DNA from: a bacterium
Lineage (GTDB): Bacteria; Elusimicrobiota; Elusimicrobia; Elusimicrobiales; UBA9959
Reading direction: 5' to 3'
DNA length: 64,000 bases
Assembly: GCA_021789695.1 (NCBI GenBank)
Contig: JAJYJH010000004.1
Span: 1 to 64,000, forward strand
Shown one piece after another: positions 49,648 to 56,576 of this stretch; within the stretch, counting starts at the first letter, position 1, and the number at the start of each line of letters is the position of its first letter. The position numbers and the translations under genes were made by a program. The notes under the pieces were generated by a model that saw only the letters and a program-made list of their open reading frames with translations, ran no database searches and had not been told where the DNA came from.

Positions 49648-49731
49648 AGAAGCTCCGGTTGTCATCAATCAGGGCGAAAGCCCGTCACAATTAAATAACT
49701 TTTGGGCGGCGCGGGCAATAGTATAAATTTA

Positions 49732-49737
49732 TATAAT
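49732..49737 (+). promoter_or_regulatory. Consensus -10 (TATAAT) just upstream of the four-gene unit
   Basis: TATAAT ends nine bases before the ATG at 49747, with no ribosome-binding site. It would drive the unit with the Cys-His tail protein and the radical SAM enzyme. No clear -35. Confidence 0.5.
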
Positions 49738-49746
49738 CAAAGTTGC

Positions 49747-50283
49747 ATGAGGTTTTTTCCGGAGGGGAAATCCAGGACTCTTTCCGCTCTTTCGCTGGTT
49801 TCTGCGGCTTTCTGTTCCATCATGACCCTTTTGGCCGCGCGCGACCTGCTGACGATGCTGGTGATATACCATACTCCGGCTTTCTACCTAGGCATGGCCA
49901 AGGCCACGGTGCCGGCGCAGATGCCGCCGTTGGCCGGTTTCATGGTGCGGCATATGCGCCTCTTCTTCGCGTTTTTTTTCTTCCTGTGGCTGTCCGGCTT
50001 AGTGCTCTCTCTGGGTGTCTGGGCGCGCCGGGAATGGGCCCGGAGCGGGGCCTGCCTGACGCTTTACCTGCTGGCGGGGGCCGCGCTGCTGATGTTGGCC
50101 TACCCGTGGCTGGCAGTGCCGCGGCCGCTGGTTTACGGCGGCGTATCGCTGGCCCCGCAGTTCAACGACGCCGTGGCCTCGGCGGCTTTCTTCACCAGGC
50201 TGACCTCATTTTTTGGCGGCGGCCTGTGCCTGTGGTGGGCGCTCGCGCTGGACAGGGGCGGCCTGCGTGGGGAGTTCAGGTAA
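49747..50283 (+). CDS. Hypothetical four-helix membrane protein
   Basis: 178 residues. Hydrophobic segments lie at about residues 14-40 (LSLVSAAFCSIMTLLAARDL), 70-95 (MRLFFAFFFFLWLSGLVLSL), 102-122 (LTLYLLAGAALLMLAYPWLA) and 142-165. The start at ATG 49747 follows a TATAAT box closely; longer readings begin inside the promoter. No family is recognised. It ends 21 bases before the Cys-His tail protein and is probably the first gene of that operon. Confidence 0.65.
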   Translation: MRFFPEGKSRTLSALSLVSAAFCSIMTLLAARDLLTMLVIYHTPAFYLGMAKATVPAQMPPLAGFMVRHMRLFFAFFFFLWLSGLVLSLGVWARREWARSGACLTLYLLAGAALLMLAYPWLAVPRPLVYGGVSLAPQFNDAVASAAFFTRLTSFFGGGLCLWWALALDRGGLRGEFR

Positions 50284-50304: not shown

Positions 50305-51975
50305 ATGAGAATAAAAAAACTTCTGCTGGCCGCGGCGCTGCTGGCCGCCCTGCGCGGCGCCGCCGCGGCCGCCGGCTTCAGCATGAACTGGGTGGAGACC
50401 GAGGTGGTGCTGGACAGGGACGGCAAGGCGCAGGTATCTTATTCCGTGCGCTGGACCGGAGAGGGCGGCGCGCTGCACGGCTTCTACTTCGAAGGCTTCC
50501 AGGAGAAGCCGGTTTTCGACCTGCAGCACGCTTACGCGCTGGACTCCTCCGGGCGCAGGTACGCGCTCTCCATAACGAAGCTCTCCGACTCTAGGTACGA
50601 CATCGTGCTGGCTGACGGCCAGGCTTTCTCCAGCGGCCAGATAACCTATTTCTTCCGTTACGCCGCCGACCTGGAGGCCTCCGGCAACGTGACGCAGACG
50701 ATGGCCGGCGGCAAGCGGCTCATGGTCTTCAACTGGTCGCCGGTGCAGTGGGAAGACCCGCTGGAACACGAGGCGCTGACCGTGCGCTTTCCTATAGAAC
50801 TGGCCTCGCCCACGGTGGACGACAGGGTGTTGTCCGGCCTGGACTTCATGACGGAAAAGTACGTCAATGGGCGCTATATGATAGATTACCCCACGGTGCG
50901 GAACGCCGAGGGCAAGAATATCTTCAGCGTGCGCTTCTTCCGCCGCGACTTGGGGCGCCGGTACCACTTCCAGGTGCAGCTGTACATGGACGCCGCTCCT
51001 TACGCGCTGAAGACGATGGCCTACGGCAGTCTGGCGAAAGGCCTGCCGAAGAAGATGAAGTATATGCCGTCACGCGAGAAGTACTACCTGAACCGCTATT
51101 TCCCGGGCAGCATACTGGCCTCTGTGCCTATAACGCGCGGCGAGACCATCTTCCTGCTGCTGATCATGTCCGTGGTATTCGTCTTCATGCCGTTCTTCAT
51201 CATGACGGTCAAGCACAACTCCATGCTGAGCGCGCAGGCCGGCATCTCCGGTATCAACTGGGACAGCACCAGCTGGGAACCGCCGAAGGCGCAGGTCAGC
51301 TCCTTCCGCACGCAGGGGAAGGTGAACAAGGGCCTGAGCCCGCTGGAGGCCGGCGTGGTGCTGGGCCTGCCGCTGACCGAGATGCTGGGCCTGATGGTCG
51401 CCAACATGGAGCGCAAGAACCTGCTGCGCATCAAGAGCAATTCCCCGCTGACGGTGGAGCGTGTGCCAAGTTCGGCCTCCGGCAATGACCCCTACGAGAA
51501 CACGCTGCTGGCGGCCGTGAAGCCCGACGGCACCATAGACCAGGCCGCGGCGGATTCCGCCGTAAAGGCGCTGGGCGCCGGCGTGAACCAGAAACTTTGG
51601 GACTGTGACATGGATGCCACCAAGGACTATTACCGCAAGCAGGTGGACCGGAACTCCGGCCTGAAGCCGGAGGACGACATGGGTTATTACTGGGGCGCCT
51701 ACCGCTGGCACTACTACAACTACAACAACCCTTACTACAGCAACGCCGCCCAGGCCGGCAGCGCGCTGAAGACCTCGCTTCCGGCGGACTTCAGCGCCAG
51801 CTTCAACTCTTTCCGCGGCTCGGCCATGTGCTACCAGGGGGCCTACGCCGGCAGCGCCTGCCACGACGCGTGCCATTCGGCCTGCCACGACGCGTGCCAT
51901 TCGGCCTGCCATTCGGCTTGTCATTCGGCCTGCCACGGCGCGTGTCACGGGGCCTGCGTCAGCAGCGGTCATTGA
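50305..51975 (+). CDS. DUF2207-like membrane protein with C-terminal Ala-Cys-His repeat tail
   Basis: 556 residues. A signal peptide (MRIKKLLLAAALLAALRGAAAA) leads into an extracytoplasmic beta-rich domain (about 25-275) like the N-terminal domain of DUF2207 proteins. One transmembrane segment follows (about 283-305, FLLLIMSVVFVFMPFFIM), then a cytoplasmic part with LSPLEAGVVLGLPLTEMLGL. The last 41 residues are eight ACHx tetrapeptides (x = D, S or G) plus a final AC. The repeat starts at 51856 in 12-base units with synonymous codon changes. Topology would place this tail in the cytoplasm, where the radical SAM enzyme encoded six bases downstream could modify it. It may be a RiPP-like substrate or a metal-binding tail. 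Confidence 0.8.
   Translation: MRIKKLLLAAALLAALRGAAAAAGFSMNWVETEVVLDRDGKAQVSYSVRWTGEGGALHGFYFEGFQEKPVFDLQHAYALDSSGRRYALSITKLSDSRYDIVLADGQAFSSGQITYFFRYAADLEASGNVTQTMAGGKRLMVFNWSPVQWEDPLEHEALTVRFPIELASPTVDDRVLSGLDFMTEKYVNGRYMIDYPTVRNAEGKNIFSVRFFRRDLGRRYHFQVQLYMDAAPYALKTMAYGSLAKGLPKKMKYMPSREKYYLNRYFPGSILASVPITRGETIFLLLIMSVVFVFMPFFIMTVKHNSMLSAQAGISGINWDSTSWEPPKAQVSSFRTQGKVNKGLSPLEAGVVLGLPLTEMLGLMVANMERKNLLRIKSNSPLTVERVPSSASGNDPYENTLLAAVKPDGTIDQAAADSAVKALGAGVNQKLWDCDMDATKDYYRKQVDRNSGLKPEDDMGYYWGAYRWHYYNYNNPYYSNAAQAGSALKTSLPADFSASFNSFRGSAMCYQGAYAGSACHDACHSACHDACHSACHSACHSACHGACHGACVSSGH
51856..51963 (+). repeat. 12-base tandem coding repeat (Ala-Cys-His-x units)
   Basis: Nine units of the form GCx-TGy-CAy-NNN. 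Units differ at third positions and at the fourth codon (GAC, TCG, GGC, GGG), and the ninth has GTC in place of His. The variation suggests selection on the peptide rather than a recent slippage product. Confidence 0.9.
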
Positions 51976-51981
51976 GGCGCC

Positions 51982-53334
51982 ATGGGCGATTGGAAAAAAA
52001 GAGTGGACTGGGTGGACGACTACGTCGCGCGCATAAAACCGTACGTGCGCGTGCGCGAGGCCGACAGCCTGCTGATAAAAATCCCCAACCAGACTCACAA
52101 GCTCAATGCGCAGGGCGTGAGGTTGCTGAAGTTCGTCATGGGCGGCGGCAGCGCCGTTTCCGTGGTGGAGGCCTACCCGGAGGAGAGGCGCGACCAGGTG
52201 TCGCTGGACGTCTATTATTTTTTCCGCGACCTGATGGCCCTGCTGAAAGGCTGCGGCGAGGAGGACCCCGGCCGGCTCGCCCTGGAGACCAGGCCGTTCG
52301 CTTTGGGCCACAACGCGCTGCCGGTCCTCAGCGAGATCGCCGTTACCTACCGCTGCAACCTGGCCTGCCGCTTTTGCTATGCGGGCTGCGGCTGCAAGAA
52401 GGACGAGGAACACCCCGATCTGCCGGCCTCGGCGCTTAAGGAGGTGCTGGGAGTCATAAGGGACGAGGCCGAGGTGCCTTCCGTCAGTTTTACCGGAGGA
52501 GAACCGCTGCTGCGCCCCGAGTTGCCGGAGCTGGTGCGGCACGCCAAGGGCCTGGAGATGTGGACCAACCTGATTACCAACGGCACGCTGGCCTCGGCCG
52601 AAACCGTGAAAAAGCTGAAGGACGCCGGGCTGGACTCCGCGCAGGTCAGCGTGGAGGCCGGCACGGCGGAGCTGCACGACGCGATAGCCGCGCAGCCAGG
52701 CGCCTTCGCGCGGAGCGTGAAAGGCGTGGAGAACTTCCTGAAGGCCGGCATACGGGTGCACACCAACACCACCATCTCGGCTCTCAACAAGGACCGCCTA
52801 GAGGGCATACTGGACCTGGTGAGGTCGCTGGGCCTTTCTAAGTTCTCCATGAACCTGCTGATGCCGGTGGGCTCGGCTGGGAAAAACTTCGAAGAGACCT
52901 TCGTCTCTTATACCGAGGCCGGCGGAATAATAGAGCGCGTAAAGGAGCTGGCCGACGCCCGGGGGCTGGAGTTCATGTGGTACTCGCCTACGCCGCTGTG
53001 CATCTTCAACCCGATAGCGCGCGGTCTTGGCAACAAGGGCTGCGCGGCCTGCGACGGCCTGCTGAGCGTCGCCCCTGACGGGGACATCCTGCCATGCTCC
53101 AGCTACCCTAAGCCCATGGGGAACATCCTGAAGGAGAAGGGGCGTTTCAAGGAGCTCTGGAGCGGGCCCGGTTTCAGGTGGTTCCGGGACAAGGCCTTCG
53201 CTCACAAGAAGTGCCGGGACTGCAGGCACTTGGCCGCCTGCAACGGCGGCTGCCCGCTTTACTGGGAAAAGGCCGGCTACGGCGAGTTGCTTCCGGCCGC
53301 CGAGGCCTGCGCCGCCGAAGAGGGGGAACTATGA
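51982..53334 (+). CDS. Radical SAM/SPASM protein with N-terminal PqqD-like (RRE) domain
   Basis: 450 residues. Residues about 27-95 resemble a PqqD-like RiPP recognition element (LIKIPNQTHKLNAQGVRLLK, then a helical LDVYYFFRDLMALLKG). The radical SAM core carries CxxxCxxC in TYRCNLACRFCYAGC (about residue 120), then SVSFTGGEPLLRPELPELVR and LITNGTL. The C-terminal SPASM region has Cys-rich blocks for extra Fe-S clusters: CAACDGLLSVAPDGDILPC, then KKCRDCRHLAACNGGCP. This architecture is typical of peptide-modifying enzymes such as those forming thioether or C-C crosslinks. The adjacent Cys-repeat tail is the obvious candidate substrate; that is inference. The stop overlaps the next start (ATGA). 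Confidence 0.88.
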   Translation: MGDWKKRVDWVDDYVARIKPYVRVREADSLLIKIPNQTHKLNAQGVRLLKFVMGGGSAVSVVEAYPEERRDQVSLDVYYFFRDLMALLKGCGEEDPGRLALETRPFALGHNALPVLSEIAVTYRCNLACRFCYAGCGCKKDEEHPDLPASALKEVLGVIRDEAEVPSVSFTGGEPLLRPELPELVRHAKGLEMWTNLITNGTLASAETVKKLKDAGLDSAQVSVEAGTAELHDAIAAQPGAFARSVKGVENFLKAGIRVHTNTTISALNKDRLEGILDLVRSLGLSKFSMNLLMPVGSAGKNFEETFVSYTEAGGIIERVKELADARGLEFMWYSPTPLCIFNPIARGLGNKGCAACDGLLSVAPDGDILPCSSYPKPMGNILKEKGRFKELWSGPGFRWFRDKAFAHKKCRDCRHLAACNGGCPLYWEKAGYGELLPAAEACAAEEGEL

Positions 53335-54371
53335 GCATACTGCCGCCGCCGCAGAAGGACGGGGAGATAAAGTTCTATTTCGCCAAGAGCCTGCCGTACA
53401 GGAAGCGCATGATGGCGGTGTTCGGCCTGCTGGCCGCCGGCCTGGCGCTGCAGGTGACCATCGGCTTCTGGCCCGGCTTCGCGCTGATGGCGGCGGCCCA
53501 GTTGCTGGGCATGAACTCCGGCTACAACTCCTCGCCTAGGGAGACCGGGCAGGAATCCTGGGAAAGGGTTACCCCTGACGAGTACACCAAGATAAAGCAG
53601 AAGGCCGCGGAACTCAACAGGTGGGACCAGGATTTCTTCGACGGCACCAATACCACCGGGGCAATCGGTTTCTTTGCTGTAGCGCTGTTGAGCGCTATCT
53701 CCTACGCGGTGCTGGCGCATATGTTCGCCTTCCCTGACGGCTACTGGTTCTATTTCGGGATGGACGCGGCGGTGCTGCTGCTGCCGCTGTGGTTCGTGGG
53801 TACGCGCGAGTACCTGAAGAAGGATGGGCTGGTCATCAAGGTGGAGATGCTGCAGAAGGTGATGGCCGAGCTGAGCGACCCCAGCGACGTGCAGGTGTAT
53901 CCCATGCTGGATCTGGACGTCACCGAGAGCGGCGGCAAGGAGCCTGATGACGCGCGCCTGATGGTGCGCATGGTCGGGGCGCCCCAGGAGTTCTACGGGG
54001 TGCAGGTGCAACTTTCCATCAACAGCGTACAGGGCAAGGACTACCCCTACCTCTACTGCGTACTGATAGCCAAAAAGGGTTCCGGCCTGCTGGACGGCTG
54101 GGAAGGGCTGGTCCCGCACCAGGACACACCCCTGCTGGCCAACATAGCCTCCGCTCTGTTCGGTGGGGCATTCGCGGTGCAGGAGCTGGTCTACGAGCCC
54201 AGCGAATCGGGAGAGGTGGACATAATAGTGGTGCGCCAGATGACCTCGGAGAACACCGGTTACTACACCTCCCGTTCCGCGGCCATGAAAGTGGTCGGCA
54301 ACTCGCTGGACTTGGCGCGTGCCCTGCTGAAGAAGAACGGCCCGCCGCCGCTGCCGCCGCAGGCCCGTTAA
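53331..54371 (+). CDS. Hypothetical membrane protein of the Cys-His tail operon
   Basis: 346 residues from ATG 53331, coupled to the radical SAM stop by a four-base overlap; a long upstream reading is shadow. Hydrophobic segments lie at about residues 27-65 (MMAVFGLLAAGLALQVTIGF) and 110-155 (TGAIGFFAVALLSAISYAVL). A soluble region (about 160-330) of alternating strands and helices follows, with no Cys motif. It ends Pro-rich (GPPPLPPQAR). No family is recognised. Possible roles are assembly or export of the tail protein. Confidence 0.65.
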   Translation: MSILPPPQKDGEIKFYFAKSLPYRKRMMAVFGLLAAGLALQVTIGFWPGFALMAAAQLLGMNSGYNSSPRETGQESWERVTPDEYTKIKQKAAELNRWDQDFFDGTNTTGAIGFFAVALLSAISYAVLAHMFAFPDGYWFYFGMDAAVLLLPLWFVGTREYLKKDGLVIKVEMLQKVMAELSDPSDVQVYPMLDLDVTESGGKEPDDARLMVRMVGAPQEFYGVQVQLSINSVQGKDYPYLYCVLIAKKGSGLLDGWEGLVPHQDTPLLANIASALFGGAFAVQELVYEPSESGEVDIIVVRQMTSENTGYYTSRSAAMKVVGNSLDLARALLKKNGPPPLPPQAR

Positions 54372-54455: not shown

Positions 54456-55289
54456 ATGTGGAACTATACCGAAAAAGTCTACGAACACTTTAAAAACCCC
54501 AAGAACGTGGGCGAGGTGGAGAACCCCGACGCGGTGGGCGAGGTGGGCAGCATAGTCTGCGGCGACGCGCTGAAGCTTACGCTCAAGATAGATAAGGCTA
54601 CCGAGATCATCAGCGACGCCAAGTTCAAAACCTTCGGCTGTGCCAGCGCGATAGCCTCCTCCTCCGCCCTGACCGAGATGATAAAGGGCATGAAGCTGGA
54701 GGCCGCCGCCAAGATCACCAACCAGCAGATAGCCGACTTCCTGGGGGGGCTCCCCAGCGAGAAGATGCACTGCTCCGTGATGGGCATGGAGGCGCTGGAG
54801 GCGGCGGTCAAGAACTACCGCGGCGCCAAGGCAGAAAAGGTCATCATAGGCGTGGGAGAGCGCGTGGTCTGCAAGTGCTTCAGCGTCACCGAGAGCCAGC
54901 TCCTGAAGGCCATAAAGCTCAACAGCCTCAAGACCGTGGAAGAGGTTACGAATTTTACCAAGGCCGGAGGCGGTTGCGGCCAGTGCAAGGGCGAAATAGA
55001 GAAGATCCTGAAGGACTACTGGGCCGAGGCCGAGCACAAGCGCTTCGCGCAGATGACCGTGGTGGAAAAGATAAAGATGATAGAGAAGGTCCTGTCCGAA
55101 GAGGTCAACCCCAAGCTCAAGGCCGACGGCGGCTGGATAGAACTGGTGGACATAGAGGGCCAGAAGGTGAAGCTGCGCTTCCTCGGCATGTGCGCGGGCT
55201 GCCCGTCGTCCAGCGCGACCTTGAAGAATGTGGTGGAGAAGGAACTGAAGGAGCGCATCGACCCCGCGCTGGAAGTGCTGGCGGAGTAA
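54456..55289 (+). CDS. nifU: NifU-type Fe-S cluster scaffold, three-domain
   Basis: Scaffold on which NifS-derived sulfur and iron form clusters before transfer. 277 residues. Residues about 1-125 are IscU-like, with scaffold Cys in VCGDALKL, TFGCASAIASSS and KMHCSVMGMEALEAAVKNY. Residues about 138-180 are a Fer2_BFD 2Fe-2S domain (VVCKCFSVTES, GGGCGQCKGEIEKIL). Residues about 200-277 are the NifU C-terminal domain with FLGMCAGCPSSSATLKNVVE. This is the full NifU layout. No nitrogenase genes are here; in non-diazotrophs such a pair can be a general Fe-S system. Confidence 0.95.
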   Translation: MWNYTEKVYEHFKNPKNVGEVENPDAVGEVGSIVCGDALKLTLKIDKATEIISDAKFKTFGCASAIASSSALTEMIKGMKLEAAAKITNQQIADFLGGLPSEKMHCSVMGMEALEAAVKNYRGAKAEKVIIGVGERVVCKCFSVTESQLLKAIKLNSLKTVEEVTNFTKAGGGCGQCKGEIEKILKDYWAEAEHKRFAQMTVVEKIKMIEKVLSEEVNPKLKADGGWIELVDIEGQKVKLRFLGMCAGCPSSSATLKNVVEKELKERIDPALEVLAE

Positions 55290-55319
55290 ACCTTCCGTCG
55301 GGTCGGCTTCGTCAGGTAC

Positions 55320-55345
55320 GGCGTCGCGCACCTCGTGCGCACGCC
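55320..55345 (+). promoter_or_regulatory. Hairpin between nifU and nifS
   Basis: An 11-pair stem with one bulged C (ggcgt-c-gcgcac with gtgcgcacgcc) and a three-base loop in the 81-base gap. No T-run follows, so it is more likely an RNA-stability or processing element than a terminator. Confidence 0.4.
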
Positions 55346-55370
55346 TCGCAGGCAGAAAAAAGGCGACAAT

Positions 55371-56576
55371 ATGGAAAAGGTGTACTATTTCGACAATAAC
55401 GCTACCAGCAGGGTGGCTCCGGAGGTCGCCAGGGAGATGGAGCCGTTTTGGGGCGAGCTCTACGGCAACCCCTCCAGCATGCATTTCTTCGGCGGCGGCA
55501 ACCAGAAGTATCTGGACCTCGGCCGCGAGCGCGTAGCGAAGCTCCTCGGCTGCGAGCCCTCCGAGGTCATCTTTACCAGCTGCGGCACCGAGTCCGATTC
55601 CACTGCCCTCTGGAGCGCCGTCCGCGCCTTCCCGGAGAAAAAACACCTCATCACCACCGCCGTGGAGCACCCCGCCGTGCTCAACGTCTGCAAGTATCTG
55701 GAAACACAGGGCTACCGAGTCACCTACCTGCCGGTGGACAAGACCGGCCAGATAAACCTAGAGGACCTCAAGGTCGCCCTTACCCCGGAGACCGCCATAG
55801 TCTCCATCATGTGGGCCAACAACGAGACCGGCGTCGTCTACCCCGTGGAGGAAGCCGCCCGCATCACGCACGCCAAGGGCGCGCTGTTCCACACCGACGC
55901 CGTCCAAGCCGCCGGCAAGGCGGCCATCGGCCTCAAGGACACCAAGATAGATATGCTCTCCATCTCCGGCCACAAACTGCACGCGCCCAAGGGCATAGGC
56001 GTGCTGTACGTCAAGAAGGGCGCGCGCTTCTCGCCGTTCATGATGGGAGGCCACCAGGAGCACGGCCGCCGCGCCGGCACCGAGAACGTGCCGTACATCG
56101 CCGGCCTCGGCAAGGCCGCGGAGCTCGCGCAGGCCAACATCGAGAAGGAGAACACCTACGTTAAAGGCCTGCGCGACCGCCTGGAGGAAGGCCTGCTCAA
56201 GATCCCCAACACCCGCGTCAACGGCGGCGGCGCCGCCCGCCTGCCCAACACCACCAACATCAGCTTCGAGTACGTGGAGGGTGAGTCCATCCTGCTGATG
56301 CTGAGCGAAAAAGGCATCTGCGCCAGCTCGGGATCGGCCTGCACGTCCGGCTCGCTCGAGCCTTCCCACGTGCTTATGGCCATGGAGGTCCCGCAGACCT
56401 ATGCCCACGGCTCCGTGCGCTTTTCCTTGAGCGTTTACAACACGGCCGAGGAAGTGGACTACATCATCCGCGAGCTCCCCCCCATTATTGAGCGCCTGCG
56501 CGCCATCTCCCCGTTCGCCGACGGCAAGCCTTTGTTCGGCATGGACGCCTGCGAGCCTCACACCCACAAACACTGA
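55371..56576 (+). CDS. nifS: Cysteine desulfurase NifS
   Basis: PLP enzyme that takes sulfur from cysteine for Fe-S assembly. 401 residues from ATG 55371; a 12-residue longer reading starts in the intergenic hairpin region. It begins YYFDNNATSRVAPEV. IWANNETGVVYPVEEAA-like sequence (MWANNETGVVYPVEEAA) and HTDAVQAAGK surround the cofactor site. The PLP Lys is in SISGHKLHAPKGIGVLYVKK, and the sulfur-relay Cys in CASSGSACTSGSLEPSHVL. A His-rich end (CEPHTHKH) is unusual but short. It acts with NifU. Confidence 0.95.
   Translation: MEKVYYFDNNATSRVAPEVAREMEPFWGELYGNPSSMHFFGGGNQKYLDLGRERVAKLLGCEPSEVIFTSCGTESDSTALWSAVRAFPEKKHLITTAVEHPAVLNVCKYLETQGYRVTYLPVDKTGQINLEDLKVALTPETAIVSIMWANNETGVVYPVEEAARITHAKGALFHTDAVQAAGKAAIGLKDTKIDMLSISGHKLHAPKGIGVLYVKKGARFSPFMMGGHQEHGRRAGTENVPYIAGLGKAAELAQANIEKENTYVKGLRDRLEEGLLKIPNTRVNGGGAARLPNTTNISFEYVEGESILLMLSEKGICASSGSACTSGSLEPSHVLMAMEVPQTYAHGSVRFSLSVYNTAEEVDYIIRELPPIIERLRAISPFADGKPLFGMDACEPHTHKH

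Follow-up and report, generated by a model that had tools for sequence, protein, structure and literature searches.

Gene layout and protein architecture

The window analysed, 64,000 nucleotides of an Elusimicrobiota contig (GenBank assembly GCA_021789695.1, contig JAJYJH010000004.1), harbours three consecutive genes, here termed A, B and C, encoding a membrane protein with an Ala-Cys-His repeat tail, a radical SAM/SPASM enzyme and a second membrane protein. A preliminary description of this DNA had placed the finding at 50305-53334, where A and B are indeed located, but had missed the third gene, with which the finding extends to 54371. The eight ACHx units and the neighbouring radical SAM/SPASM enzyme were otherwise recovered as described, with the open reading frames in place, the tail legible in the translation and the Pfam domains present. 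The features are:

49702-50283: gene for a 193-aa membrane protein directly upstream of A; no Pfam match, conserved in the genus
50305-51975, forward strand: gene A, 556-aa membrane protein
51148-51219, forward strand: predicted single transmembrane segment of protein A, about residues 282-305 (AlphaFold helix 278-314; hydropathy of the window protein and homologues)
51856-51972, forward strand: Ala-Cys-His tail, residues 518-556 of A, (ACHx)8-ACVSSGH, with invariant Cys, His and Ala alignment columns
51982-53334, forward strand: gene B, 450-aa radical SAM/SPASM enzyme with an N-terminal RRE-like domain
52033-52281, forward strand: putative RRE (PqqD-like) region of B, about residues 18-100 (PqqD in orthologues; weak PDB matches)
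52354-52377, forward strand: radical SAM motif CX3CX2C of B (C125, C129, C132), invariant in 51/51 sequences
52999-53253, forward strand: SPASM region of B with C340, C354, C372, C411, C414, C420 and C424, invariant in 51/51 sequences
53331-54371, forward strand: gene C, 346-aa membrane protein with four transmembrane segments and a C-terminal beta domain; overlaps the B stop codon (ATGA)

Protein A is composed of a signal peptide, an extracytoplasmic beta domain (residues ~25-230), one transmembrane segment, a cytosolic helical region (346-515) and, following a Tyr/Trp/His-rich linker, the repeat tail, which is itself poorly predicted by AlphaFold. Because an N-terminal signal peptide is combined with one transmembrane segment, the tail is predicted to reside in the cytosol, as had been proposed, and this topology is supported at the level of the family. 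The outer beta domain resembles the N-terminal domain of M1 aminopeptidases and ribophorin I. The earlier designation of A as DUF2207-like applies to part of the family, as the Pfam model DUF2207 (PF09972) recognises the N-terminal outer domain, leaving the repeat tail uncovered, in 15 of 45 homologues (best E 1.7e-5), but does not match the window protein. Equally, the cytosolic helical region is remotely TIGR04222-like (9 of 45 homologues, best E 1.6e-7; window protein 13.5 bits, under the curated cutoff of 43), and TIGR04117 matches 13 of 45 homologues (best E 2.9e-4; window protein 10.7 bits, cutoff 50). Protein A stays below every NCBIfam (2026) cutoff, and the 2025 copy of Pfam holds no model spanning protein A or protein C as a whole. 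Protein C is confidently modelled by AlphaFold (pLDDT 90.4, pTM 0.83) as four transmembrane helices and a beta domain, for which the PDB offered no significant fold match (best E 0.04, to YbjN).

The tail comprises nine cysteines with exact four-residue spacing, eight of them followed by histidine, within the last ~38 residues; residues 519-551 read CHDA CHSA CHDA CHSA CHSA CHSA CHGA CHGA C, with the first base at 51859. Codons differ between the repeat units (GCC/GCG/GCT, TGC/TGT, CAC/CAT), and pairwise comparison of 12 tails of the same genus gave 860 synonymous versus 46 non-synonymous codon differences. The repeat is therefore held by selection on the protein, and a recent expansion at the DNA level is ruled out by the varied codons together with the synonymous excess. 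Among the matches listed in the genome scan described below, the variable position is occupied by Ser 441 times, Asp 61, Asn 16, Gly 8, Gln 4, Ala 4 and His once, and the true tails among them mostly end in ACVSGG[AS][HR].

In the window enzyme B, Pfam identifies Radical_SAM (1.3e-27) and SPASM (1.7e-10). The PqqD-like domain announced in the preliminary description is not detectable by Pfam in this enzyme alone, but appears in 32 of 51 orthologues at E<=1 (best 6.6e-11) and in 5 of 32 N-terminal segments of the family at E<=0.001, while the corresponding region has weak PDB matches to PqqD, TfuB1 and TbiB1; a putative RRE in B is thus supported at the family level. Across the 50 full-length orthologues aligned from the matches listed, identity to the window enzyme ranges from 36 to 83%. 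The best PDB matches of the family include the peptide-modifying enzymes SkfB, PqqE and, presumably, as identified from their entry codes, SuiB and CteB, which are radical SAM/SPASM proteins like B but act on small peptides, the match being confined to the shared domains. Enzyme B lies far below every NCBIfam maturase cutoff and reaches no other NCBIfam cutoff, its top models being the heme-biosynthesis radical SAM enzymes AhbD/NirJ with heme b synthase highest, and its chemistry can therefore not be read from its family. No relative of B was recovered from a plasmid collection, and a role in defence was dismissed as the PADLOC matches reflect generic radical SAM similarity to viperins.

Distribution of the tail and its linkage to the enzyme

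About 85,000 prokaryotic species genomes were scanned for DNA encoding CHxACHxACHxACH. The matches listed comprise 80 loci; counts from them are lower bounds, and the sample represents a part of the full distribution. Among these, at least 70 loci (70/80) carry a true tail on a homologous protein. The preliminary description had considered the Ala-Cys-His version a possibly new variant; the family is pan-phylum rather than local, reaching at least 20 phylum-level lineages, archaea included, among the matches listed. These lineages include Spirochaetota, Planctomycetota, Acidobacteriota, Desulfobacterota, Verrucomicrobiota, Clostridia and Gammaproteobacteria and further WOR-3, Myxococcota, Nitrospirota, Gemmatimonadota, one Heimdallarchaeota bin and one Thermoproteota bin, the loci being mostly from metagenome bins in which any single lineage assignment may be wrong. 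Nine chance pattern matches were left out (L053, L076, L077, L078, L080, L084, L109, L111, L126), as was L092, where the pattern sits in a separate, unlinked protein. This Pseudomonas mucoides protein (L092:802-1228), 142 aa long, of unrelated type and at a locus without B, ends in CHSACHGACHGACHGARGWR.

The co-occurrence of tail and enzyme, suggested earlier as a check, is near-exceptionless across phyla. A B orthologue is present in 65/70 tail loci among the matches listed, nearly always as the next gene; two of the remaining loci (L074, L120) are situated where the sequence ends, and the three that look complete without a local B (L054, L102, L116) belong to genomes that each hold one B elsewhere. 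In a sample of 248 genomes of the window's own phylum, B and the tail pattern share exactly 14 genomes (14/14), with a reversed control pattern giving zero in all 248, and among 237 genomes sampled from a myxobacterial phylum the two again coincide, in seven genomes (7/7). Five more genomes of the latter sample have one to three pattern matches each, like the control background; one of them, G535, was rejected as a tail carrier, its three matches being a chance string in an alternative frame. B without a tail was looked for in both of these phylum samples and in eight single genomes. A set of 150 related genomes yielded A in 25 genomes, along with a single fragment, and B in exactly these 25, where both genes adjoin except at contig breaks and the tails are almost identical. 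In the WOR-3 chromosome record CP070802.1 (L102/L207), A is located far from B-C, each near masked or N sequence, suggesting that the separation is an assembly join.

Homologues of C directly follow A/B in 55/70 loci among the matches listed, and most of the loci without C are sequence ends. A recognisable C is absent from L063, L071, L094 and L103 (Myxococcota/delta/Riflebacteria) and from the archaeal L105. L063, L071, L094 and L105 share a coiled-coil gene at the place of C beside the enzyme; in three of these four loci this long gene has a zinc-ribbon-like CPRC...FC..CA motif. In L055 and L116, C is positioned directly 3' of A.

Presence, loss and duplication of the three-gene unit

Twelve genomes of the window's genus show an ACT-domain gene, the 193-aa membrane protein gene and then A, while in 15 others the same two genes are directly followed by nifU, with A-B-C missing as a block from an otherwise collinear region. 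The 193-aa gene, which remains at the sites without A-B-C, was accordingly rejected as a member of the unit. At the genus site of G039, a scar of 49 codons of A remains, which disqualifies this genome as a case of A without B. Two genomes have duplicates: the arrangement is A-B-C-A2-C2 in G310, and G152 has an A-C pair apart from its A-B-C; B occurs once in each of these genomes. That C accompanies each A while B is common to the duplicates fits C as a partner and B as a maturase, and B indeed looks like a maturase. Pairwise divergence is correlated among the three proteins (A-B r 0.81, A-C 0.88, B-C 0.74, with A taken without its tail), values reached in 0/2000 permutations and to which shared descent contributes.

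Genes resembling the Fe-S assembly genes nifU and nifS (54456-56576) directly follow C in the window's genus, were not seen as a conserved neighbour outside it and represent a local neighbourhood. Spirochaete and related loci (L074, L079, L081, L091, L097, L112, L117, L131) encode a small membrane protein family immediately before A, and a conserved protein of ~130 aa is encoded upstream of A in L073, L098, L102 and L130 (Aminicenantes, WOR-3, Armatimonadota). Among the recurrent neighbour families inspected, no MNIO-like one was recognised.

Putative function of the tail and its enzyme

The combined observations point to a probable radical SAM modification system with the tail of a membrane protein as its substrate. 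We favour, with a probability of about 0.6, that A, B and C form one unit in which B, guided by its RRE, oxidatively modifies the cytosolic ACHx tail, which is retained on A, the chemistry being putative. Protein A would be inserted so that the N-terminal domain faces outwards and the repeat tail lies in the cytosol, and the RRE of B would bind A, probably at the cytosolic region preceding the tail or at the fixed ACVSGGxH end, upon which B may modify the (ACHx)n repeats successively. The most likely products would be dehydrogenative Cys-centred thioether cross-links, with a change of approximately -2 Da each and up to 8-9 per tail. Still on A, the modified tail may provide an A-C membrane complex, in which C would serve as the structural partner of A, with a cytosolic appendage that is either rigid or metal/redox-active. 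Speaking against this proposal, the spacing of a cysteine every four residues is without the donor/acceptor layout of classical sactipeptides. More tentatively, and at somewhat less than even odds, the system may represent an ancient, widely shared membrane device by which a dedicated radical SAM enzyme converts the C-terminal, cytosolic end of an intact membrane protein, rather than a released peptide, into a rod of cross-linked Cys-His units that would serve as a metal/redox sensor or relay, along with a new partner with four transmembrane segments.

Alternative roles of tail and enzyme have to be considered. The invariance of His and Ala, equal to that of Cys, and the several chemistries performed by SPASM enzymes with an RRE would agree with a modification by B of non-Cys residues, for example of His/Ala by three-residue cyclophane formation, epimerisation or methylation, with the cysteines as later metal ligands; as the seven invariant auxiliary-cluster cysteines of B also fit thioether chemistry, we consider this unlikely, although a realistic option. 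That the tail is an unmodified ligand array of CxxxCH units for metal, Fe-S or heme, with B having another target or using the tail as a metal source, appears improbable: Cys-His repeats are natural metal ligands and the closest NCBIfam models of B are those of heme biosynthesis, but B possesses a putative RRE, a module that usually binds peptides, and accompanies the tail one-for-one across phyla, and the strict Ala and Ser/Asp/Asn positions exceed the needs of metal binding. We regard as very unlikely a classical RiPP pathway, in which the modified tail would be cut off for release or export, C being the transporter or protease. Such a pathway would be in line with the cleaved precursors that RRE-containing radical SAM enzymes usually have as substrates and with C being a membrane protein; however, C has no convincing match to a transporter or peptidase family, no transporter or protease gene is conserved among the recurrent neighbours of the unit across loci, and the tail forms part of a large, conserved membrane protein with regions on both sides of the membrane.

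Modification of a tail on the membrane protein, the reading preferred here, has its closest published precedent in the proposal that MNIO enzymes act on TIGR04222 membrane proteins with Cys-rich tails (PMC12452194). Both systems consist of a membrane protein with a C-terminal Cys-rich low-complexity tail and an adjoining gene for a RiPP-type enzyme, but the enzyme here is a radical SAM/SPASM protein, the tail is strictly ACHx and predicted to be cytosolic rather than periplasmic, and A-B-C features a DUF2207-like outer domain and the additional partner C with four transmembrane segments. Targets of the CXXX-repeat radical SAM type (TIGR04117) equally display a cysteine every four residues and pairing with a radical SAM enzyme, although that model covers 98 positions whereas A is a membrane protein of 556 aa. 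The ACGX system (TIGR04340), judged by its name, shares Ala-Cys-x-x repeats and a radical SAM/SPASM enzyme, from which B is distant with 91.1 bits against a cutoff of 400. No paper on the system itself, on the tail strings, on DUF2207 with radical SAM, on ACGX, on the CXXX repeat or on related NCBIfam accessions was found in the open-licence literature, an absence that is weak evidence.

A-B-C looks like an unnamed, widespread machine that chemically modifies a protein tail, and neither of the curated libraries, Pfam and NCBIfam, names the system. The near letter-for-letter preservation of the tail from Elusimicrobia, Spirochaetes, Planctomycetes and Clostridia to Asgard and Thermoproteota archaea, with the enzyme in every checkable genome, points to a specific function. 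The interpretation is testable on this defined set of three genes, for which sites naturally lacking the unit and genomes with duplicated A-C pairs are available. If it is true, radical SAM peptide chemistry would extend to a large membrane protein that is modified in place.
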